The position numbers and the translations under genes were made by a program. Shown here in pieces: positions 32,370 to 42,507 of a stretch of DNA of 64,000 nt. Below the pieces are notes generated by a model. The model was not told the DNA's origin and ran no database searches. It saw nothing but the letters and a program-made list of their open reading frames with translations. Source of the stretch: Flavobacteriaceae bacterium (GTDB taxonomy: Bacteria; Bacteroidota; Bacteroidia; Flavobacteriales; Flavobacteriaceae); contig WUAI01000011.1 of the NCBI GenBank assembly GCA_009827225.1, forward strand, positions 1-64,000, read 5' to 3'. Position 1 is the first letter of the stretch. Each line of letters opens with the position of its first letter.

Positions 32370-33701
32370 TTAGACTTTCCCCTGTATTTTTTGATAAATC
32401 TGCAATGAATTGCCATCGGTGAGTTGAGCCACAAAATTGCAGGTCTGGATCAAATTGTGATAAAGTGACCTCTGGTGGGAAACTTGAAAATCGGCCTGAT
32501 CCAAAATAAGACGATCGTAATGTCTTATGTTTCCGGAAATATCCCTTTCAACGGCCTGTGTGAAGGTATCCAAAATCGAATTCAGGATAGAGTAACCAGC
32601 GATCTCTTTGTCTACTACTTCTCTGCTACGGTAGATTTTTTCTACGGAAATTTTAAGGATATCATCAATTTGAGCGCGATACTTGCTTCGGTCCATCAAA
32701 GCTTCATGAAAGTTCCCTTTCATAATTTGGTCCTCATTGGCGAGAAATATGTCAACGGCTTCCTGAATAAGCGTATTAATCGCCAGGGATCTTAAATAGG
32801 CCAATCGGTCGGAAGACCTGGTAAGTGCAGTGTATTTGGTGGTATTGATGTTATGCTTTACCAGTTTTACCAAATACTCCAAAGCAAACTCTTCTTCGAT
32901 CCAACCCAGGTTGATGCCGTCTTCAAAATCAATAATGGTATAGCAAATATCGTCTGCTGCTTCCACCAAAAAAGCCAAAGGGTGACGACTATATCTACCA
33001 TCTCCCTGTTCCAGTAATCCAAGTTCCTCGGCTACTTCTCTGAAGAAGGGTACGTCTTCCTGGAATACCCCAAACTTCTTATCCGAGATTTGCGAAGTAG
33101 GCTTTTTGGGCAAAGACTCTTTCGGGTATTTAATAAAAGCTCCTAAGGTGGCGTAAGACAATCGTAATCCGCCGGTTAGTCCATTTTTTGATTCGGTTAG
33201 AATTTTGAATCCGTTGGCGTTCCCTTCAAAATCCACTAAATCCTGGTATTCTTTTTCCGAAAGCTGCGATTGGAATCGTTGGCCATTTCCATTCTTGAAA
33301 TAATCGCCCATTGCCTTTTCCCCGCTGTGACCAAATGGAGGATTTCCGATATCGTGAGCCAAAGCAGCAGCGGCGACTATGGCTCCAAAATCGTTGAAGC
33401 GATAACCGTGAGTATCCTGCAATTGAGGATGTTTTTCCAAGAGGGCCTTTCCCACAGCCCTCCCCAATGATCGCCCTACAACGCTCACCTCCAGGCTATG
33501 AGTGAGCCGCGTATGAACGAAGGAAGTTTTGGATAATGGGATGACCTGGGTCTTGTCTTGCAAACTTCGGAAAGCAGAAGAAAAAATAATACGATCGTAA
33601 TCCACTTCAAACCCTAATCGGGTTTCATCCTGTTCCAGTCGAATTCGCTTTCCGGTGTCTCCTTGCCTACGTAAAGAAAGGAGTCGTTCCCATTGCATCA
33701 T
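32370..33701 (-). CDS. dgt: Deoxyguanosinetriphosphate triphosphohydrolase (dGTPase, HD family)
   Basis: 443 residues. The metal-binding HD motif is seen as HSLEV and AHDIGNPPFGHSGE, with a further Asp in AADDICYTIIDFE; the start region RLLSLRRQGD and RIIFSSAFRSLQDKTQV are typical of Dgt proteins. It releases triphosphate from dGTP and related dNTPs, setting dNTP balance; ribonucleotide reductase and dCMP deaminase are encoded elsewhere in the window. Two adjacent ATGs (MM) are possible starts. Divergent from the TonB receptor gene across a 263-bp region with repeated motifs. Confidence 0.95.
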   Translation of the reverse strand: MMQWERLLSLRRQGDTGKRIRLEQDETRLGFEVDYDRIIFSSAFRSLQDKTQVIPLSKTSFVHTRLTHSLEVSVVGRSLGRAVGKALLEKHPQLQDTHGYRFNDFGAIVAAAALAHDIGNPPFGHSGEKAMGDYFKNGNGQRFQSQLSEKEYQDLVDFEGNANGFKILTESKNGLTGGLRLSYATLGAFIKYPKESLPKKPTSQISDKKFGVFQEDVPFFREVAEELGLLEQGDGRYSRHPLAFLVEAADDICYTIIDFEDGINLGWIEEEFALEYLVKLVKHNINTTKYTALTRSSDRLAYLRSLAINTLIQEAVDIFLANEDQIMKGNFHEALMDRSKYRAQIDDILKISVEKIYRSREVVDKEIAGYSILNSILDTFTQAVERDISGNIRHYDRLILDQADFQVSHQRSLYHNLIQTCNFVAQLTDGNSLQIYQKIQGKV

Positions 33702-33792
33702 ATAGCCTCAATTTAAAGGCAGAAAGATAAAAGTTTATTTGATGGAATCGAATAAAATCGAACAGAACATTTCAGCATTTAATAAATTCAAA

Positions 33793-33880
33793 TTAACCTT
33801 CAATTAACCCTACGATTTTAAGTTTGAACTTGAAAAATCTAAATAATTACAGTTAACAATTATCTAACATAATCATTACG
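33793..33880. promoter_or_regulatory. 11-bp-phased direct repeats upstream of the TonB receptor (candidate response-regulator sites)
   Basis: Two clusters. TTAACC at 33793-33798 and again at 33804-33809, exactly 11 bp apart, within AATTAACC repeats; and TTAACA at 33853-33858, CTAACA at 33864-33869 and a weaker ATTACG at 33875-33880, again in 11-bp steps. Such spacing is typical of tandem half-sites bound by PhoB/OmpR-type regulators, and the TTAACC core resembles the cyanobacterial Pho box. The receptor ATG is at 33965; a -7-like TTCCTTTG lies at 33934-33941. Confidence 0.45.
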
Positions 33881-33964
33881 ATAAACTAAGGGAAGCATAA
33901 CATTGGGGTAACTGGTTGACGTCCATTTTAAAGTTCCTTTGCACCAAATAAGTAACTATTATTG

Positions 33965-36742
33965 ATGAAACAAATTATTACTCTTTGTGCGTTATTACTA
34001 CAAGCCGTACTCTTTGCACAAACTGGGACCATTGAAGGTTCGTTAACCGACACTGAACAGAACAACGAGCCTCTCCCTTTTGCCAACATAATCATCAAAG
34101 GAACCACCCAAGGGACCACTTCAGATTTTGATGGAAATTATATCATAGAAAATGTAGCTCCCGGTATATATACTTTGGAATTTAGTTTTGTGGGATACGA
34201 AACATTAGAGATTCCCAACGTCACTGTGGAGGCTGAAAAATATACTCGTATTGATGCAGGGCTAGGAGCCAGCGCAGCCACACTGGATGAAGTTGTGATC
34301 AAAGTACAAACGAGTCGTGAAAGAGAAGAAGCGCTATTACTGGAACAGAAGAAAGCCGTAATGGTAAAAGAAAGTATTGGTGCAGAGCAGCTTGCTAAAT
34401 TAGGAGTTTCTGATGCATCTACTGCAACCACGAAAATTTCCGGAGTAAATAAAACCGACGGAACAGGTGACATTTTTGTTCGAGGATTAGGAGATCGTTA
34501 TTTGTATACGACCTTAAATGGATTACCAATTCCTTCTGATGATATCGAAAGAAAGAACATTGATCTTTCTCTTTTCCCAACCCGATTGATCCAGAGTATT
34601 TCTGTTTCTAAAACAACAAGCGCCAGCACTTCTGCCGATCAGGCTTCAGGTAATATCGATATTACCTCAAAAGAATTGTCCGGTAATAGTCTGCTCAACG
34701 TACAGGCCGGGACTTCTGTAAATACCAACGTGATGGAAGATGGTGTTTTCGACAATTTCAAAGTATCCCCAAACCAAGAGGATGTAAACTTCGGGGTTTA
34801 TGTAAGAGACTTAAATACAGAGGAGGCTATCACGCAGCAATCGTGGAACCCGATCCAGGAAAGCGCTCCTATCAATTCAACAATAGCCATAAGCGCTGGA
34901 AAAAAGATAGGGGACAACCTAAAGGTATTGTTAACCGCGGGACAAACATCTAATTACGAATACCGAAATGGAGTGTTTCGTCAATTTCGTTCCAACTTTA
35001 TAGATGATTCTATTACCGACGCAATCACCTGGAGAAAGACAGTTGCTACTTCAGGATTGTTCCATGCGCGATATAAGGCCGGAGAAAAAAATACATTAAA
35101 GTTCAATACGCTTGTGATCAACAAGTTGGAAGACAATGTGTTCGAAGGTGGACGAGCCGGTAACTCAACCATATTTGAAGAAACAGATCCGGGAGAAGGA
35201 TTTTTCCAATTCATTCGTGACCAGAACATTAAAAAGACTTTGTTATCAGTTACTCAGTTGTCCGGTTCCCATGAGATTTCAGAAAGAAATACTTTAACCT
35301 GGGCCGGAGGTTACAATTATGTGAGTGCCGATGAGCCGAATCGTATTCGAAACGAAGTAAACTTCAATGAAGATATTGTTCAATTAGGTAGAACCGGTGG
35401 TTTCCAGCAACGGAAGAGTATTCAGCTTATTGAAGATGTGGAATACAATGGGTTGATCAATGATTTGATCAAAATCGTGGATGGAGAAGAACGATTTTTA
35501 CATATGAACGTCGGTGGAAATTATCGATACAAAACTCGAGATTTCCGATCAAGATTTGTAGGTGTGGAAGAAGCTTTTACCAATGCCATTAATCCGAACT
35601 CTATCGATGAGATCTCTGATATTTTTACCGAAACAAATTTCACCAACAATATCCTTGACCTAAATATCTTGACCCCCGACTTCTACGAAGGGACCTTGCA
35701 AAGTATTGCCGCGTACATGGACCTCACCGGTTCCATTGGGAAATTAAGCGTGCAGGCTGGTTTGCGATTCCAAAAGGATGATATCGATGTAGAATTCGAT
35801 GTAAATAACTTCCCAGGAAGATTGGGTTCTTCTACAAAGAACTATCGTCGATTATATCCTTCGATAAATGTGAAGTATGCTTTCAACGACAAGCATAGTC
35901 TGAGATTTGCTAATAGCAGCACTCAAACGCTGCCTGAATTCAAAGAGATCGCTCCATTTGAATATGTATCACCTCAAGGACAGGTTACCCGCGGTAATCC
36001 GAATGTTGAAGCGTCCACCAACTACGTATATGACCTTAAGTACGAGTTCTTTCCTACCAATGATCAATTGGTTTCTATAACCGGATTTTATAAGCGAATC
36101 GAAGATCCGATTAACAAAGTACAGGACCGTGGCTCGGCAGGGGTATTCTCTTATTTCAATTCGGGAGATAAAGCTGAAGTGTTTGGATTGGAATTGGAAG
36201 CTCGTGTAAATATCATCGATAATGAAGAAGGAGAAGGATCTAAAGTAAGATTCAATTTCAATGCTTCGCGAATGTGGCATGAGCAGGACCTTAAAGAAGT
36301 ATTCGATGAACAAGGGAACTTTATAAGAACCTTCCGCTATAAAGGACTTACTGAAACAGATCTACAAGGAGCCTCCGATTGGATTGTGAATGGATCACTA
36401 AACTTTGACACCAATAATGAAAAGCCATTCACGGCTTCCTTGGTTGGAAACTATGCTTCAGACAGAGTATTTGCTCTTGGAGCTCCGGAATTCCAGACTT
36501 CCAGTGACACCAACTATAACGATGCCATTGTAGAGAACGGTTTTGTAACTCTGGACCTAGTACTCAGAAAAGAATTTGGAGAACACTGGAGAATAAGCTT
36601 AACAGGAAGAAATTTAATTAATCCTGAAATAAAACGAACACAACTGGTCCGTCCAAGTACGACAGGAATTGAGACAGAAGAAACTGTGCTCTCATACACC
36701 CGTGGTAGACAGATAGGACTCAGCCTAAACTATACATTTTAA
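33965..36742 (+). CDS. TonB-dependent outer-membrane receptor with carboxypeptidase-like N-terminal domain
   Basis: 925 residues from ATG 33965 (a TTG at 33962 is less likely). Signal peptide to about residue 20, a carboxypeptidase regulatory-like domain (GTIEGSLTDTEQNNEPLPFA and following to about 105), a plug domain (about 130-240: KISGVNKTDGTGDIFVRGLG, GLPIPSD) and a beta-barrel ending in an aromatic residue (LSLNYTF). It is not a SusC type: no SusD is adjacent. The next gene, 26 bp downstream, encodes a duplicated beta-helix lipoprotein, and a phosphate transporter follows. I infer a role in phosphate or organophosphate uptake from this context and from the upstream repeats; the substrate is not shown by sequence. 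Confidence 0.93.
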   Translation: MKQIITLCALLLQAVLFAQTGTIEGSLTDTEQNNEPLPFANIIIKGTTQGTTSDFDGNYIIENVAPGIYTLEFSFVGYETLEIPNVTVEAEKYTRIDAGLGASAATLDEVVIKVQTSREREEALLLEQKKAVMVKESIGAEQLAKLGVSDASTATTKISGVNKTDGTGDIFVRGLGDRYLYTTLNGLPIPSDDIERKNIDLSLFPTRLIQSISVSKTTSASTSADQASGNIDITSKELSGNSLLNVQAGTSVNTNVMEDGVFDNFKVSPNQEDVNFGVYVRDLNTEEAITQQSWNPIQESAPINSTIAISAGKKIGDNLKVLLTAGQTSNYEYRNGVFRQFRSNFIDDSITDAITWRKTVATSGLFHARYKAGEKNTLKFNTLVINKLEDNVFEGGRAGNSTIFEETDPGEGFFQFIRDQNIKKTLLSVTQLSGSHEISERNTLTWAGGYNYVSADEPNRIRNEVNFNEDIVQLGRTGGFQQRKSIQLIEDVEYNGLINDLIKIVDGEERFLHMNVGGNYRYKTRDFRSRFVGVEEAFTNAINPNSIDEISDIFTETNFTNNILDLNILTPDFYEGTLQSIAAYMDLTGSIGKLSVQAGLRFQKDDIDVEFDVNNFPGRLGSSTKNYRRLYPSINVKYAFNDKHSLRFANSSTQTLPEFKEIAPFEYVSPQGQVTRGNPNVEASTNYVYDLKYEFFPTNDQLVSITGFYKRIEDPINKVQDRGSAGVFSYFNSGDKAEVFGLELEARVNIIDNEEGEGSKVRFNFNASRMWHEQDLKEVFDEQGNFIRTFRYKGLTETDLQGASDWIVNGSLNFDTNNEKPFTASLVGNYASDRVFALGAPEFQTSSDTNYNDAIVENGFVTLDLVLRKEFGEHWRISLTGRNLINPEIKRTQLVRPSTTGIETEETVLSYTRGRQIGLSLNYTF

Positions 36743-36768
36743 CAATTCAATCAAGTAAATTAAAAACT

Positions 36769-38709
36769 ATGAAACAAATTAAATCCTTTGCAGCCATTTT
36801 CGCTGTATTAAGTATGTTATTCGCTACAGGTTGTAGCAGCGATGACGGTGGATTCACGCAAACCGATGATGGTAGTGAAGAAGAAGTTACCGATCTATCG
36901 GGGAACTTAGAGTCGGATAGAATTTTGGATGCCTCTTTCCAATATAATATTACAGGTCCTTATTTAGTAAAATCAGGAGCTACTTTAACCATTCCAGCCG
37001 GAACCGTGATCACCACTACGGGTGGAACCGACAAGTATATTGCGGTTGAACAAGGTGCAATGATCGATATCCAGGGAACTGCCTCCCTTCCGGTTATCAT
37101 GAGATCTTCTCAAGATCCATGGGGTGGACTTCTTCTTTGCGGAGAAGCTCCTACTACTGAAGGTGTGGACGCAATCGCTGAGGTAGGTGGTCTTATCTAT
37201 GGTGGAACTAATGCTAACGATAGTTCTGGTAACATTGATTATCTAATCATCGAGGATTCAGGAGCGCAAATCAACTCCGAGTCTCAGTACAACGGTCTTA
37301 CACTATATTCTGTAGGTAGCGGTACTTCAATCGACAACGTGGCTATCATCGACGGTACTGATGACGGTGTTGAGTTCTTTGGTGGAACAGTATCCGTAAC
37401 CAACCTATATCTTGAAAACAACGAAGATGATGCTGTGGACTGGACTGAAGGATGGAATGGAACTGTAACTAATACTTATGTACTTCATACTATCGAAGGT
37501 TTCTCTACTGCAGTGGAAGCTGATGGTGACAACGCCAACCCTAAATTGATGAACTTCACTGCAAACTCTACCACTGGTGGAACTGCACTTCAGTTCAAAA
37601 AAGAATCGGGTGCTACGATTACCAACCTTGCCTTAATTGGTTATGAAACTTCTATCGATATGAAAGATGATGGTCCATTATCGAACGTGATCATCGAGGG
37701 AGAAGATGGAGATCCAAACAATACTTACATTGCGCCTCCAACTGTGGACGTGACTATCTTTGACTGGGTATCTTCGAACAGCACAGGAGATTCCTTTACC
37801 ATCCTTGAAGGTGATGTAACAGGAACTGTAACTCTTGATCCTAACACAAACTACCTGTTGAACAACTCTTACATTGTTCAAAGCGGTGGAAAATTGATCA
37901 TCCCGGCAGGAACAAAGATCACTGCTAGAGATGGTGGTGTAGATGTGTACATCGCCGTGTTGAAAGGAGGACAAATCGAAATCAACGGAACTGCAAGTGA
38001 CCCAGTAGTGATGTCTTCACAGTCTGCCCAACCGGGTGATTGGGGAGGATTAACAATCTGTGGTGACGGGCCAACTACTGAAGGTATCGATGCTATTGCC
38101 GAAGTAGGAGGATTTGTATACGGAGGGAACAATCCTAACGATGATTCAGGAAATATCGATTATTTGGTAATTCTTGGAACAGGAGCTCAGATCAACTCAG
38201 AATCTCAATATAACGGAGTATCACTTTACGCAGTAGGAGATCAGACTAGCATTAATAACCTTGCTGTGATCAATGGTGCTGATGATGGTATCGAATTCTT
38301 CGGTGGAACAGTAAGTGCTACTAACTTATATTTCGAAAATAACGAAGATGATTCTGTAGACTGGACTGAAGGATGGAACGGTGGTATCACCAATACATAT
38401 GTATTACATGAGATCGATGGATTCTCTACTGCCATTGAAGCCGATGGTGATAACTTCAACCCTTCGGTTACTAACTTCACTGCAGTTTCCAGTACAGGAG
38501 GAATTGCACTTCAGTACAAAAAGGAATCCGGAGCTACAATGACGAACGTCCTTCTTACCGACTATGCAACTAACGTTGACATGAAGGATGACGGACCTGT
38601 ATCCAACATCATTGTAGATGGAGTACCAATGACAACCGTAGACGACGATGTATTTAACGGAACTGCCGTAGATATCTCAGGTTGGTCTTGGATTAACGCA
38701 AGATTGTAA
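36769..38709 (+). CDS. Surface lipoprotein made of two tandem beta-helix repeats
   Basis: 646 residues. The lipobox ATGC gives acylated Cys22, followed by SSDDGG; an SDD-type acidic motif after the cysteine fits the Bacteroidota surface-export signal. The rest is a near-complete internal duplication with an offset of 307 residues: each half has a strand-rich entry (GATLTIPAGT / GGKLIIPAGT), then PTTEGxDAIAEVGG, GNIDYL, AQINSESQYNG, DDGxEFFGGTVS, NNEDDxVDWTEGWNG, TYVLH, GFSTAxEADGDN and KKESGAT. The pattern suggests right-handed beta-helices. It probably partners the TonB receptor encoded 26 bp upstream, as SusD does SusC, but shares no SusD features. Acidic conserved blocks (DD, EDD) could bind calcium or substrate. 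Substrate unknown. Confidence 0.88.
   Translation: MKQIKSFAAIFAVLSMLFATGCSSDDGGFTQTDDGSEEEVTDLSGNLESDRILDASFQYNITGPYLVKSGATLTIPAGTVITTTGGTDKYIAVEQGAMIDIQGTASLPVIMRSSQDPWGGLLLCGEAPTTEGVDAIAEVGGLIYGGTNANDSSGNIDYLIIEDSGAQINSESQYNGLTLYSVGSGTSIDNVAIIDGTDDGVEFFGGTVSVTNLYLENNEDDAVDWTEGWNGTVTNTYVLHTIEGFSTAVEADGDNANPKLMNFTANSTTGGTALQFKKESGATITNLALIGYETSIDMKDDGPLSNVIIEGEDGDPNNTYIAPPTVDVTIFDWVSSNSTGDSFTILEGDVTGTVTLDPNTNYLLNNSYIVQSGGKLIIPAGTKITARDGGVDVYIAVLKGGQIEINGTASDPVVMSSQSAQPGDWGGLTICGDGPTTEGIDAIAEVGGFVYGGNNPNDDSGNIDYLVILGTGAQINSESQYNGVSLYAVGDQTSINNLAVINGADDGIEFFGGTVSATNLYFENNEDDSVDWTEGWNGGITNTYVLHEIDGFSTAIEADGDNFNPSVTNFTAVSSTGGIALQYKKESGATMTNVLLTDYATNVDMKDDGPVSNIIVDGVPMTTVDDDVFNGTAVDISGWSWINARL
36890..38700 (+). 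repeat. Internal gene duplication within the beta-helix lipoprotein
   Basis: Two halves in the same frame with an offset of 921 bp (for example ACTACTGAAGG at 37153 and ACTACTGAAGG at 38074). The protein halves stay strongly similar while the DNA has diverged at many third positions, so the duplication is old and both halves are under selection. Confidence 0.85.
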
Positions 38710-38735
38710 TAATCTTTCATAATAGTTTTCTTACT

Positions 38736-38767
38736 AAAAAAGGCTGTCGATTTTGACAGCCTTTTTT
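38736..38767. terminator. Bidirectional intrinsic terminator
   Basis: Perfect 13-bp stem AAAAAAGGCTGTC / GACAGCCTTTTTT with loop GATTTT, between the beta-helix gene and the convergent YwqK-like gene. Confidence 0.94.
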
Positions 38768-38785
38768 TTTCGAATACTATATTAA

Positions 38786-39151
38786 CTAAGGTTTGTTACT
38801 CACCACTCGAGTACCGGTAACTTCCCAGGTTTTTACTTCAGAAATTCTCGAATCTACATAGCGAACTTCTTTCTTGGTATTTCCATTATAGAAGGTCCAT
38901 GTGCCCACTTTTTCTCCATTATCATAAAAAGCCTTAGCGGTGTGAATTCCATTATTGTCATAACTATTCCACTCCCCTTGCAACTTTCCGTCTTTGGTGT
39001 AAAATCCTACCTGGGCTACTTCACCATTATCATGGTACAAGGTGGCCGAAATCAAATCTCCAGTCAATTCTAACTTCTTTTGTTTGTCAATCTGTGCCAT
39101 AACCGGAACAGCTAACAACGCAACGATAATAAGTACTGCAAATCTTTTCAT
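38786..39151 (-). CDS. Secreted YwqK/MORN-like repeat protein
   Basis: 121 residues with a signal peptide (MKRFAVLIIVALLAVPVMAQ). The mature part has three short repeats of the YwqK/MORN type, each with a Tyr/Phe and Asp-Asn-Gly turn: LYHDNGEVAQVGFY, SYDNNGIHTAKAFY, FYDNGEKVGTWTFY. Such proteins are common and of unclear function in Flavobacteriaceae; annotation as an antitoxin is not supported here, since no toxin gene is nearby. It has a good promoter (TTG at 39208-39210 and TAGATTTG at 39180-39187, minus strand), and a phased ACA repeat array overlaps that promoter. Confidence 0.85.
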   Translation of the reverse strand: MKRFAVLIIVALLAVPVMAQIDKQKKLELTGDLISATLYHDNGEVAQVGFYTKDGKLQGEWNSYDNNGIHTAKAFYDNGEKVGTWTFYNGNTKKEVRYVDSRISEVKTWEVTGTRVVSNKP

Positions 39152-39179
39152 AATAGGGCATTTATTAATGATTACTTTA

Positions 39180-39234
39180 CAAATCTAACAATATATTCAC
39201 AATTAAACAACATTTACATAACATTAATTTTACA
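39180..39234 (-). promoter_or_regulatory. Promoter with five 11-bp-phased TGT half-sites
   Basis: On the minus strand a perfect -7 box TAGATTTG (39187-39180) has TTG at -33 (39210-39208) with a 20-bp gap. Across it, hexamers ending in ACA on the plus strand recur every 11 bp: CTAACA 39185, TTCACA 39196, ACAACA 39207, ATAACA 39218, TTTACA 39229. The phase fits a tandem response-regulator site controlling the YwqK-like gene and possibly the divergent phosphate transporter. Confidence 0.45.
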
Positions 39235-39364
39235 TTAACTCTATATATAACTGTATTTCAACACTTTATGATTTTATTATTTTCACTTATCTAATAAGAT
39301 TCTATCATAGAAAAAGACTACAAGTTGATTGGCGAACCTTTTCCTACATGAGCCTCTAAAACTC

Positions 39365-39409
39365 ATAACCTTTTCGTAACATACTCTTCGAAAAATAATA
39401 TCAATTTTG
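39365..39409 (+). promoter_or_regulatory. Candidate Pho-box-like repeat and promoter of the phosphate transporter
   Basis: ATAACC at 39365-39370 and GTAACA at 39376-39381 lie 11 bp apart and end 20 bp before CAATTTTG (39402-39409, one mismatch to TAnnTTTG), so the repeats cover the -33 region, where an activator of the PhoB type would bind. The transporter ATG is at 39432. Confidence 0.45.
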
Positions 39410-39431
39410 CCTATCCTTTCTTCGGAAATTT

Positions 39432-41699
39432 ATGGACAACATTTACCTAATCATGCTTATTGCTCTGGCTGTTTTGGCCATCGCCGACCTTGTTGTTGGA
39501 GTGAGTAATGACGCTGTGAACTTCCTGAATTCGGCCATCGGATCCAAGGCTGTTTCTTTCCGAACCATTATGATCGTTGCCAGTATAGGGATCGCCTTCG
39601 GTGCCCTGTCTTCCAGTGGAATGATGGAAGTGGCCCGTAAGGGAATTTTTGTCCCGGGGGAATTTTATTTCGACGAAATCATGATCATATTTATGGCAGT
39701 AATGATCACAGACATCCTGCTGTTGGATTTCTTCAATAGCCTGGGTCTGCCTACCTCGACCACCGTATCCATTGTGTTCGAATTATTGGGAGCTGCGGTG
39801 TGTATGTCCATACTAAAGATCTATGAAAACGACGACACCATCCTGTCCTTAGGAAATTATATCAATTCTGAAAAAGCCACTGAAATTATCCTGGGAATAT
39901 TACTCTCGGTGGTAGTGGCATTTACCGTTGGAGCCATCGTACAATATGTATCCCGTTATCTCCTTACGTTTAATTTTGAAAAGAAACCGGTCTGGATTGC
40001 TTCCATTTTTGGTGGGCTGGCCATCACCTCCATTTCGTATTTCATTATCATTAAAGGATTAAAGGGGGCGGCCATTCTTCCCGAAGAATTCAATGTATGG
40101 GCCAAGAACAACCTCTGGGAATTCATAGGACTCAATGCCCTATTCTGGACTATTATTTCGGCTGCAATTATCTCCTTCTTAAAAACCAATATTTACAAAC
40201 TTATTATCGTGGTAGGAACTTTTGCCCTAGCCATGGCTTTTGCCGGAAATGACCTGGTGAACTTTATCGGAGTACCCATGGCAGCCTATCAGTCTTACCT
40301 GGCATGGACCGCCGAGTTCGCGTTGAACGGTACACTTGCTACCGAATTCAGCATGGAGAGTCTGTCGGCCAAAGTACCCACACAACCACTACTCTTATTA
40401 CTCGCAGGAGTGATCATGGTGCTAACCTTATGGTTTAGCGAAAAAGCGCGACGGGTAGTTAAAACATCGGTGGATCTTTCCAGACAAGAAGAGGTCAAAG
40501 AACGCTTCAAACCCAACTGGCTGTCGCAAAATCTTGTAAGAGGGGTGATCGCGATGAATCGTGGAGTGAGCTATGTGCTACCCAAAAGCTCTCAGCAAAG
40601 AATATCGGATCGTTTTGCGCCTAACCATGCTTCGAAAATCTTAGATGCAGATGCACCTGCGTTTGATATGGTTCGGGCCGCAGTGAACCTGGTAGTCGCC
40701 AGTGTCTTGATATCCATAGCAACAGGAATGAAGTTACCGCTTTCTACTACCTATGTGACCTTTATGGTAGCGATGGGATCTTCCCTGGCCGACCGTGCCT
40801 GGGGAAGCGATAGTGCGGTGTATCGTGTCGCGGGTGTGATCAATGTTATTGGAGGATGGTTTATGACGGCCATCACGGCATTTGGTGCTGCGGCATTGAT
40901 GGCTTTACTACTCTATCACTTTGGCGGATATGCGTTGACCGTATTATTATTATTGGCGTTAATCCTGGTAGGAAGAGGTTATCTGAAAGGTGCCAGAGAT
41001 ACTCGCGAAATCAAAGAAGAGTTGGAATTCAGAAAAGCGGAAAGTTCTTCGGTGATGGGGGTGATTGAAGAAAGTTCGCCTAATGTTTCTACTGTGATGA
41101 AACGAGGGGGAAAACTCATCTCAAATACCATTGAAAATCTTGCCAAACAGGATCTAAAAAAGTTACGTGCAGCGAGAGACTATGGAGAAAGGCTTTCTGA
41201 TGAGATGGATGATCTCAAAAATCACGTTTTCTATTATATTAAAAATCTGGATGGAGATCTTCCCGGAGCCAGTCGCTTCTATTTATTGGTTCAGGACTCG
41301 CTGGAAGATTTAGTGCAGTCACTTACCTTCATCAGCAAAACCAGTCATAAGCACGTCAAGAATGGTCATAAGGGATTGCGTTTTAATCAAATTCGTGATC
41401 TCAAAGAAATTGAAGAGAGAATTCTTACCCTTTTCAAAAATGTGAGAAAGGAATTCGACAATCAAACCTACGACAATCTTCCAAACATACTCGAAGAGAA
41501 ACAGGACCTGTTGAATTTTATTTCCGATGAAATTGAGAAACAAATCCAGCGCACTGCCGACCCTGAAGCTAGTGCGAAGAACTCTTCTCTGTATTTCAGT
41601 CTACTATTGGAATTCAAAGATATCGTGGAGGAAACCATGATATTACTCGAGCAATATTTTGTGGAGTACAGCAACTCCAAAAAACCAGATATACTTTAA
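39432..41699 (+). CDS. PiT-family inorganic phosphate transporter with C-terminal PhoU-like domain
   Basis: 755 residues. The N-terminal two thirds is a PiT permease with duplicated signature segments (GVSNDAVNFLNSAIGSKAVS and FAGNDLVNFIGVPMAAYQSY) and GLPTSTTVS / KLPLSTTYVT motifs in about ten to twelve spans. Residues about 545-755 are soluble and helical (TREIKEELEFRKAE; DYGERLSDEMDDLKNHVFYY; KEIEERILTLFKNVRKEF), resembling PhoU/DUF47 proteins, normally separate partners of PiT. So transporter and regulator seem fused. It imports phosphate with a cation. Repeats at -33 suggest control by phosphate status. Confidence 0.93.
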   Translation: MDNIYLIMLIALAVLAIADLVVGVSNDAVNFLNSAIGSKAVSFRTIMIVASIGIAFGALSSSGMMEVARKGIFVPGEFYFDEIMIIFMAVMITDILLLDFFNSLGLPTSTTVSIVFELLGAAVCMSILKIYENDDTILSLGNYINSEKATEIILGILLSVVVAFTVGAIVQYVSRYLLTFNFEKKPVWIASIFGGLAITSISYFIIIKGLKGAAILPEEFNVWAKNNLWEFIGLNALFWTIISAAIISFLKTNIYKLIIVVGTFALAMAFAGNDLVNFIGVPMAAYQSYLAWTAEFALNGTLATEFSMESLSAKVPTQPLLLLLAGVIMVLTLWFSEKARRVVKTSVDLSRQEEVKERFKPNWLSQNLVRGVIAMNRGVSYVLPKSSQQRISDRFAPNHASKILDADAPAFDMVRAAVNLVVASVLISIATGMKLPLSTTYVTFMVAMGSSLADRAWGSDSAVYRVAGVINVIGGWFMTAITAFGAAALMALLLYHFGGYALTVLLLLALILVGRGYLKGARDTREIKEELEFRKAESSSVMGVIEESSPNVSTVMKRGGKLISNTIENLAKQDLKKLRAARDYGERLSDEMDDLKNHVFYYIKNLDGDLPGASRFYLLVQDSLEDLVQSLTFISKTSHKHVKNGHKGLRFNQIRDLKEIEERILTLFKNVRKEFDNQTYDNLPNILEEKQDLLNFISDEIEKQIQRTADPEASAKNSSLYFSLLLEFKDIVEETMILLEQYFVEYSNSKKPDIL

Positions 41700-41736
41700 T
41701 CGTAACTCCGTGGTCGATCGCTTGATTCAAATTGTC

Positions 41737-41744
41737 TAAATTTG
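41737..41744 (+). promoter_or_regulatory. -7 box of the DUF6503-like gene
   Basis: TAAATTTG matches TAnnTTTG exactly, 20 bp before the ATG at 41765; no good -33 was found. Confidence 0.5.
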
Positions 41745-41764
41745 AGCATTAATCTTTATCGATC

Positions 41765-42478
41765 ATGAGGTTCCTTTTTATTTTTTGTTCTTTTTTCTTT
41801 CTTCTGAAATCCAATGCTCAAGAATTGACGGGAGAACAACTTTTGGAGAAAACCATCGCCTTTCATGATCCCGGAGGAAACTGGGAAACCTTCAGTGGAA
41901 CATTGAACGTCACTATGGAAACCCCGAAGGCCTCTCCCAGAAAGAGCACCATTGTGATCGACCTTCCGAAGGAACATTTCGAAGTAACCGCACGGCGTGA
42001 TACGAACACCACAAAATATTCGATCACCAAGGGAGCTTGTACCATCACCTTTAACGGAGAAACTAATATTTCCGAAGAAATCAAAAAGAAAAACAACCTG
42101 AGTTGTGAGCGGGCCAACCTGTATAAAAACTATTACACTTATCTGTATGGTCTTCCCATGAAGCTAAAAGATCCGGGAACCAAAATTGCCTCGAACGTAG
42201 CGCGACGAAATTTTAAAGGGAAGGAATACCTGATGATGAAAGTCTCTTACGATGAAGGCGTGGGCAGCGATGTTTGGTTCTTCTATTTCGATCCCAAGAC
42301 CTATGCCATGGAAGTATATCAATTCTTTAAAGGGAACCCTTTTGGAATGGGGAAAGATACGGGTGAATATATTTTACTTTCTGAAATGAAGACTATCGAA
42401 GGGATCAAAATGCCCAAAGTACGGGCCTGGTATTATAACAAAGACGACAAGTACCTGGGCACTGATATCCTGGAATAA
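41765..42478 (+). CDS. Exported DUF6503-like protein
   Basis: 237 residues with a signal peptide (ending KSNAQ). The mature sequence has a LolA-like pattern of amphipathic strands: TGEQLLEKTIAFHDPGGNWE, WETFSGTLNVTM, YLYGLPMKLKDPGT, and a C-terminal EGIKMPKVRAWYYNKDDKYL. These fit the DUF6503 group of flavobacterial periplasmic or outer-membrane proteins, whose role is unknown. Cys102 and Cys118 or near may form a disulphide. It is monocistronic, with its own promoter and a terminator overlapping its stop codon. Confidence 0.8.
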   Translation: MRFLFIFCSFFFLLKSNAQELTGEQLLEKTIAFHDPGGNWETFSGTLNVTMETPKASPRKSTIVIDLPKEHFEVTARRDTNTTKYSITKGACTITFNGETNISEEIKKKNNLSCERANLYKNYYTYLYGLPMKLKDPGTKIASNVARRNFKGKEYLMMKVSYDEGVGSDVWFFYFDPKTYAMEVYQFFKGNPFGMGKDTGEYILLSEMKTIEGIKMPKVRAWYYNKDDKYLGTDILE

Positions 42479-42507
42479 AAAAAGGAAGGCTTTCACCTTC
42501 CTTTTTT
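42478..42507. terminator. Bidirectional intrinsic terminator
   Basis: Stem AAAAAAGGAAGG / CCTTCCTTTTTT with loop CTTTCA; its first base is the last base of the upstream stop codon. It also ends the convergent nrdA transcript (stop at 42524). Confidence 0.92.

Follow-up and report, generated by a model that had tools for sequence, protein, structure and literature searches.

The stretch of DNA analysed here (the window) comprises positions 1 to 64,000 of contig WUAI01000011.1, from a Flavobacteriaceae bacterium (assembly GCA_009827225.1). Between positions 33,793 and 41,699 it holds genes for a TonB-dependent receptor, a duplicated lipoprotein, a small protein with a MORN-like repeat and a PiT phosphate transporter, together with pairs of TAAC half-sites that follow an 11-base-pair (bp) period. 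The original prediction, made from the sequence alone, described a possible phosphate-starvation locus in which such repeats are read by a PhoB-type regulator.

The locus and its TAAC boxes

The receptor gene (33965..36742, + strand) encodes a protein of 925 amino acids with a CarboxypepD_reg-like domain, a plug and a barrel, its start codon being taken as the ATG at 33965. It is followed on the same strand by the gene for a 646-amino-acid lipoprotein (36769..38709), with a lipobox read by eye and two tandem beta-helix-like domains. The gene for the MORN-like protein (38786..39151, - strand; Pfam MORN_2 below its gathering score) is divergent from the PiT gene (39432..41699, + strand), whose product scores 107.1 bits against Pfam PHO4, above the cut-off of 33.7, and bears a C-terminal extension. 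PiT is the only PHO4 gene found in the genome, an assembly of 80 contigs, and the sole match to the PstS family (PF12849, at C36) reads by eye as a LysR-type regulator; because of these two observations, PiT is probably the main phosphate importer of this genome. No RNA family was found across 33600-42500.

We define the box as TAAC-N7-TAAC, that is, two half-sites of 11-bp period. The window contains six instances on the + strand and none on the - strand, and four of the six lie within the receptor and PiT promoters. Before the receptor, a promoter-proximal box (33898..33912, + strand, half-sites at 33898 and 33909), which the original prediction had missed, is followed 25 bp after its second TAAC by TTTGC (33938..33942), the presumed -7 element. 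An upstream box (33854..33868) precedes it by 44 bp (4 x 11), and a distal pair (33794..33808) is out of phase. The PiT box (39366..39380, + strand) is also followed after 25 bp by a presumed -7 element, TTTGC at 39406..39410. The last three pairs had been described as TTAACA-n5-CTAACA, TTAACC-n5-TTAACC and ATAACC-n5-GTAACA, respectively, and the coordinates then given are correct throughout, corresponding to TAAC pairs at 33854/33865, 33794/33805 and 39366/39377 and to a five-step ACA array before PiT. The full form (box, 25 bp, TTTGC) occurs in the window only at 33898-33942 and 39366-39410. In Bacteroidota promoters the -7 element is TTTG, which places the second half-site over the -33 region.

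Two further features of this part of the locus may be recorded. The C-terminal extension of PiT (40992-41699, about 235 residues) is conserved, and is possibly a regulatory domain. A fused PhoU/DUF47 domain was considered for it and is not supported: Pfam gave a weak, unrelated match only, profile comparison with PhoU/DUF47 yielded a probability of 0.1, and the PDB matches were weak and helical. In addition, two orthologous loci carry a Porin_O_P gene between MORN and PiT (L017, 9829-11052; L018, 9814-11016), a place at which the window has none.

Conservation and genomic distribution of the box

Orthologous loci were obtained from a search with the lipoprotein, of which the best 80 of 175 were retained. 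The receptor set comprised the 350 bp before the gene in 78 loci and in the window (79 regions; L044, with no receptor match, and L050, with a match starting at residue 71, were left out), and the PiT set the 27 loci with a PiT match and the window (28 regions). Thirty dinucleotide shuffles and the opposite strand served as controls; the counts come from kindred sequences that are not independent, and are therefore not to be read as probabilities. Three patterns were tried, of which TAAC-N7-TAAC is the loosest; the two stricter ones occur in 7/79 and 25/79 receptor regions and in 0/28 and 0/28 PiT regions.

The box is present before the receptor in 68 of the 79 regions, against a mean of 1.3 (maximum 5) in shuffles and 10/79 on the opposite strand, and before PiT in 23 of the 28 (shuffles mean 0.5, maximum 2; opposite strand 3/28). 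A gap of exactly 25 bp separates the second TAAC from TTTG in 37 of the 116 receptor pairs (37/79 regions) and in 13 of 27 PiT pairs (13/28 regions), and no other gap was met more than five times. Ahead of the receptor, TAAC elements are most often spaced by 11, 22, 33 or 44 bp, and a further set of preferred spacings is 19, 30 and 52 bp; in many receptor promoters another box lies 33 or 44 bp further upstream, at whole multiples of 11. The original prediction had made its case depend on repeats of this kind being conserved upstream of orthologues, and they are conserved before both receptor and PiT. Its PiT repeat, proposed to cover the -33 region, is the conserved box at 39366, 25 bp before TTTGC; of its two receptor repeats, the one at 33854 recurs as the upstream box, and the one at 33794, which the closest orthologues lack at the corresponding place, may be a chance or private site.

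The ACA array (39186..39236, + strand, conserved core 39219-39236) consists of exactly five 11-bp steps, at 39188, 39199, 39210, 39221 and 39232, and is the only array in the window with at least four steps at period 11; none occurs at periods 7-10 and 12-15. It had been read as linking the lipoprotein to PiT, an assignment that has to be revised. The array follows the MORN promoter in orthologues, which rules it out as a PiT element. In the MORN set (20 loci and the window; loci were excluded if the match was on the opposite strand or the flank too short), the pattern TAAC-N7-T[AT]AC, chosen after the sequences had been seen, occurs on the strand opposite MORN in 19 of 21 regions and on the same strand in none (shuffles mean 1.0, maximum 4). 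It lies mostly 55-80 bp before the MORN start, with a gap to TTTG of 34-35 bp in 10 cases and other gaps in fewer. The array is thus inverted relative to MORN, which, like phoB (see below), has a predicted operator in this orientation.

To follow the box across genomes we used the strict pattern TAAC-N7-TAAC-N25-TTTGC, with the same pattern reversed as control. In 149 genomes of the family, the strict pattern gives 333 matches in 135 genomes and the reversed control 41 in 37. Seventy of the 333 sites were read, made up of the 30 loci returned and 40 in listed order, with four others of the window's genome left out. Among them, 26 start 78-98 bp before moxR, 23 start 62-76 bp before PiT, and 12 precede receptors of the window receptor's family, one of these (L147) weakly so (26% identity, 179 bp). 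One site precedes a beta-helix-like lipoprotein and one, in the window's genome, a pirin gene, both labels resting on queries from those same loci (L135 vs P0002: 30%). In all, 62 of the 70 precede moxR, PiT, a receptor of this family or the lipoprotein; seven are unassigned, a share that agrees with the 12% expected from the reversed control. The window's own genome has five strict sites, before the receptor, PiT, moxR, pirin and a peptidase-like gene (M23 by eye), of which the last two are taken as probable chance matches in view of the 41 control matches in 149 genomes. Its moxR promoter, which lies outside the window (G000:C11:13642-13686, - strand; L097), has the same box and gap. As the commonest family target, the MoxR-Bat operon appears to be a core member of the PhoB-like regulon.

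The original prediction allowed that some of its repeats could be chance products of AT-rich DNA. The shortness of the motif and the lack of conservation of the 33794 pair speak for this, and for that pair the caveat was well placed. For the elements at 33898, 33854, 39219 and 39366, chance is refuted by the shuffles, the reversed-pattern control and the identity of the genes that follow, and as an account of the whole pattern it is exceedingly improbable.

Beyond the family, 145 genomes of the class yield 66 matches to the strict pattern against 39 to the control, an enrichment much weaker than within the family. All 66 sites were read, 20 having been picked by eye for TAACATT-like half-sites before the other 46. 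Phosphate-linked genes follow 26 of the 66, a number close to the excess over control (27), and four more sites precede TonB receptors. The phosphate-linked genes comprise DUF47/PhoU_div genes (6), a porin followed by PhoU_div (2), PHO4 (4), PstS (2), a Na/Pi cotransporter (1), Porin_O_P (4), an OprP-like porin (1), phoB (2), a small open reading frame followed by a phoB-like gene (2), a PlcP-like gene (1) and a beta-helix protein (1). On a strict count, 19 of the 66 sites concern phosphate transport or the control of that transport, the porins, the PlcP-like gene and the beta-helix protein being softer evidence. The OprP-like assignment (L280) is by 38% identity alone, without a Pfam match; the genes at L260 and L261, which have DUF47 downstream, were recognised as porin-like by eye; and the site before the plcP-like gene (L281) lies 168 bp upstream. 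Of the 46 sites checked in this respect, 12 fall within long open frames; the rest stand before genes that are unrelated or were not identified. The class-wide sites link the box to phosphate by evidence that does not come from the locus in the window. The two small open reading frames counted above, in two genomes outside the family (L277:264-491 and L310:264-491), encode a 76-amino-acid protein and are followed by phoB-like genes.

The PhoB-like regulator and the receptor/lipoprotein pair

The genome encodes an OmpR-type regulator beside a histidine kinase at G000:C50, on a contig other than that of the window. Its orthologues, hereafter phoB (75-81% identical), stand divergently beside the receptor in 35 of the 80 orthologous loci when counted above 300 bits, which leaves out six weaker matches. 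The kinase accompanies them in 35/35 and a glycosyltransferase in 24/35 at the score cut-off used, in the order glycosyltransferase-phoR-phoB-receptor-lipoprotein. Among 30 phoB genes, drawn from 40 relatives, 24 have an inverted box upstream and two a forward one, the far edge of the inverted box lying mostly 82-99 bp before the start. A receptor or lipoprotein match adjoins phoB in seven of the 30; among the 23 whose fetched flank holds no such match, the inverted box is present in 18. Outside the family, a forward box stands 65 bp before phoB in L314 and L316. No single gap from the inverted phoB box to a -7 element was found, the commonest values (42-45 bp) being diffuse.

OmpR-family regulators besides PhoB also use 11-bp repeats, and a different regulator might read the box, with phoB as one of its targets. 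In the same direction points the motif of Riemerella anatipestifer PhoP, which has been noted as ArcA-like (PMC9603813). The core of that motif in DNA affinity purification sequencing is nevertheless TTTAACA, the moxR promoter is shifted by the purified regulator, and a phoP mutant has lower levels of MoxR, BatA and BatC (PMC9603813). Since moxR is also the commonest gene behind the strict sites, and since further OmpR-type regulators are few in the window's genome (four PF00486 matches, one without a receiver domain by eye), we judge a different regulator very unlikely. By analogy, the agreement at moxR between the Riemerella work and the strict family sites is independent evidence that a PhoB-like regulator would read the box.

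Three properties expected of a Pho box are found here: 11-bp direct repeats at a preferred distance from the promoter, a position before known phosphate genes (pst, PiT, phoB), and its presence before the regulator gene. We hold it very likely that the locus is a phosphate-starvation module under a PhoB-like regulator that binds TAAC pairs, as originally proposed; the conserved box, the phosphate genes that follow it outside the family, phoBR beside the receptor in 35 of the 80 orthologous loci and a similar, phosphate-induced locus of Flavobacterium johnsoniae all support it. The regulator at G000:C50 would bind pairs of TAAC half-sites 11 bp apart. With the second half-site lying over the -33 region and TTTGC following 25 bp beyond it, the regulator would most likely activate the receptor and PiT promoters by replacing the -33 contact, much as E. 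coli PhoB acts at -35. The upstream box of the receptor may give extra induction; at phoB and MORN the box is inverted. Under phosphate shortage, the surface beta-helix lipoprotein and the TonB-dependent receptor would capture a phosphorus compound and import it across the outer membrane, and PiT would then move phosphate across the inner membrane. In F. johnsoniae, the receptor (+8.02), lipoprotein (+9.91) and PhoB (+3.06) of the PUSIV/phoBR locus (Fjoh_0541-0546) rise on phosphate depletion only, values that stand in a column headed 'FC' in a paper whose text speaks of log2FC; the receptor and lipoprotein do not rise on nitrogen or iron depletion (PMC8115612).

Several observations weigh against this reading. 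The architecture with TTTG at 25 bp is absent from 42 of the 79 receptor regions, and the box is missing from eight of nine receptor loci with a non-flavobacterial host in the record title. The best two NCBIfam matches of the regulator are to PhoB (TIGR02154, NF053854), at 217.8 of 296.2 and 207.7 of 270 bits, below the cut-offs. The PlcP-like phosphoesterase gene of the window's genome has a full site (N25, TTTG; G000:C80:39619-39662), and plcP had to be rejected as a conserved family target, with no full site in 15 orthologues from 40 relatives and two with a TAAC pair only. The F. johnsoniae table shows no induction of OprP (Fjoh_0542) or PhoR and has no entry for PiT (PMC8115612). For moxR, the gene most often found behind the box, no role in phosphate supply is obvious. 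In Riemerella, the 50 direct, differentially expressed PhoP targets hold no annotated phosphate-uptake gene, 34 of the 50 being repressed (PMC9603813), and pstS is 8-fold up in the double mutant (PMC5399024).

The moxR sites and the Riemerella targets would suit a PhoB-like regulator that binds the box in response to a main signal other than phosphate in Flavobacteriaceae, for instance envelope or oxidative stress through MoxR-Bat, as would the poorer survival of Riemerella phoP and phoR mutants in H2O2 (PMC9603813; PMC5399024). Yet 35 of the 44 strict sites not before moxR precede PiT or the receptor, boxes outside the family stand before PstS, DUF47, PiT, Na/Pi cotransporter, OprP-like porin and phoB genes, and F. 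johnsoniae induces its similar receptor and lipoprotein specifically among the depletions named above. We regard a non-phosphate signal as improbable, and retain phosphate starvation as the signal in what follows.

The two proteins proposed to act at the outer membrane form a conserved pair, with a receptor match directly upstream of the lipoprotein in 79 of the 80 orthologous loci. The AlphaFold2 model of the receptor (mean predicted local distance difference test, pLDDT, 83.0; predicted template modelling score, pTM, 0.79) has a generic TonB-receptor fold, and its PDB matches are generic TonB receptors that give no hint of a ligand. The duplication of the lipoprotein is real, its halves being 65% identical over 273 residues, and its nearest named relatives are from Flavobacteriaceae. 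Its model is mostly beta (mean pLDDT 88.7, pTM 0.54) and has beta-helix proteins as top PDB matches, in line with the original description; the matches are weak, carbohydrate-active enzymes are among them, and the template modelling (TM) score normalised by query is at most 0.22 among the 50 best listed. No Pfam or NCBIfam match to the lipoprotein was found, and the search for a solved structure related by sequence returned one chance match (E 0.94). The absence of SusD that had been proposed holds: the partner lipoprotein is beta-helix-like and without family match, and the receptor scores 58.2 bits against SusC/RagA TIGR04056, below the cut-off of 368.25.

In six of eight congeners (L212-L217), the receptor is 36-38% identical to that of the window and is accompanied by a one-domain lipoprotein, of 393-397 amino acids where complete, which indicates replacement or deep divergence of the receptor/lipoprotein pair. 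In the congener G007, a divergent receptor and one-domain lipoprotein stand at the same place, followed by MORN and by a PiT 75% identical to that of the window. Because receptor and lipoprotein differ together in congeners, the comparison fits a physical pair. Phosphate, a phosphodiester and a phosphorylated glycan are candidates for its substrate, which we infer to be a phosphorus compound; several candidates are kept because the receptor model is generic and the structural matches of the lipoprotein are weak, some of them carbohydrate-active enzymes.

These same beta-helix matches raise the possibility that the lipoprotein is instead an enzyme (polygalacturonase-like) or, as suggested for ElpS of Caulobacter crescentus, an activator of a secreted phosphatase, either of which would be compatible with the proposed regulation. 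Overproduction of ElpS raises alkaline phosphatase activity, ElpS itself seemingly not being a phosphatase (PMC2996285). With no family match, poor structural matches and a pairing with the receptor that fits a surface complex, we consider such a role possible but rather doubtful, and favour capture and import of a phosphorus compound. Taking the evidence together, we lean towards a wider view in which the strict box is the general Pho box of Bacteroidia with one preferred promoter geometry, acting in the family at the PiT, receptor/lipoprotein and MoxR-Bat promoters and at inverted phoB and MORN operators; the Bat operon would be a long-standing yet unexplained part of the phosphate regulon, and the pair a SusD-free phosphorus importer of the outer membrane.

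Comparison with known systems

A close parallel in gene order and description is PUSIV of F. johnsoniae, which has glycosyltransferase, phoR, phoB, receptor and lipoprotein (IPR011050) in the same order as the orthologous loci. It differs in that Fjoh_0542 (OprP) lies between glycosyltransferase and phoR, and the window differs from it in having the pair beside PiT and phoBR on another contig. No promoter motif is given, and the term 'Pho box' does not occur, in the accessible text of that study, in which the lipoproteins FI-FIII are said to resemble ElpS (PMC8115612). ElpS and Cc0171 of Caulobacter are in turn comparable, by description, in that a phosphate-starvation surface lipoprotein has a gene co-occurring with that of a TonB-dependent receptor; they differ in belonging to an alphaproteobacterium, in release dependent on type II secretion and in that cc0171 is not phosphate-regulated (PMC2996285).

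Riemerella PhoP/PhoR, whose proteins are likewise compared by description, shares the TTTAACA core, direct positive control of moxR-Bat and binding upstream of its own operon; it differs in that no 11-bp/25-bp promoter architecture appears in the accessible part of PMC9603813 and in its uncertain phosphate role. In Bacteroides fragilis, deletion of phoB nearly abolishes low-phosphate expression of pstC, and a Pho box for pst is mentioned there without sequence (PMC3547664); putative Pho boxes have also been described in plcP clusters of marine bacteria (PMC4796936). SusCD loci resemble the window's pair in combining a TonB receptor and a lipoprotein, the pair differing by the lack of SusD and by the low SusC/RagA score of its receptor.

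PhoB regulons are already known, and good definitions of the Pho box exist for proteobacteria, Gram-positives and cyanobacteria. In the literature covered, which excluded preprints and most subscription papers, no definition of a TAAC box for Bacteroidota was found beyond the similar Riemerella PhoP motif, and what appears to be new here is a defined box with its spacing for this phylum. Such a box would allow candidate phosphate-regulated genes to be listed from sequence in marine, soil and gut Bacteroidota, and allows direct tests of what the MoxR-Bat operon and the abundant phosphate-induced surface lipoproteins do. The Pho boxes of E. coli and cyanobacteria are 11-bp direct repeats over the -35 region, with a TTAAC-like core in cyanobacteria; the box described here differs from them in its Bacteroidota-type promoter, with TTTG at -7, and in its preferred gap of 25 bp.

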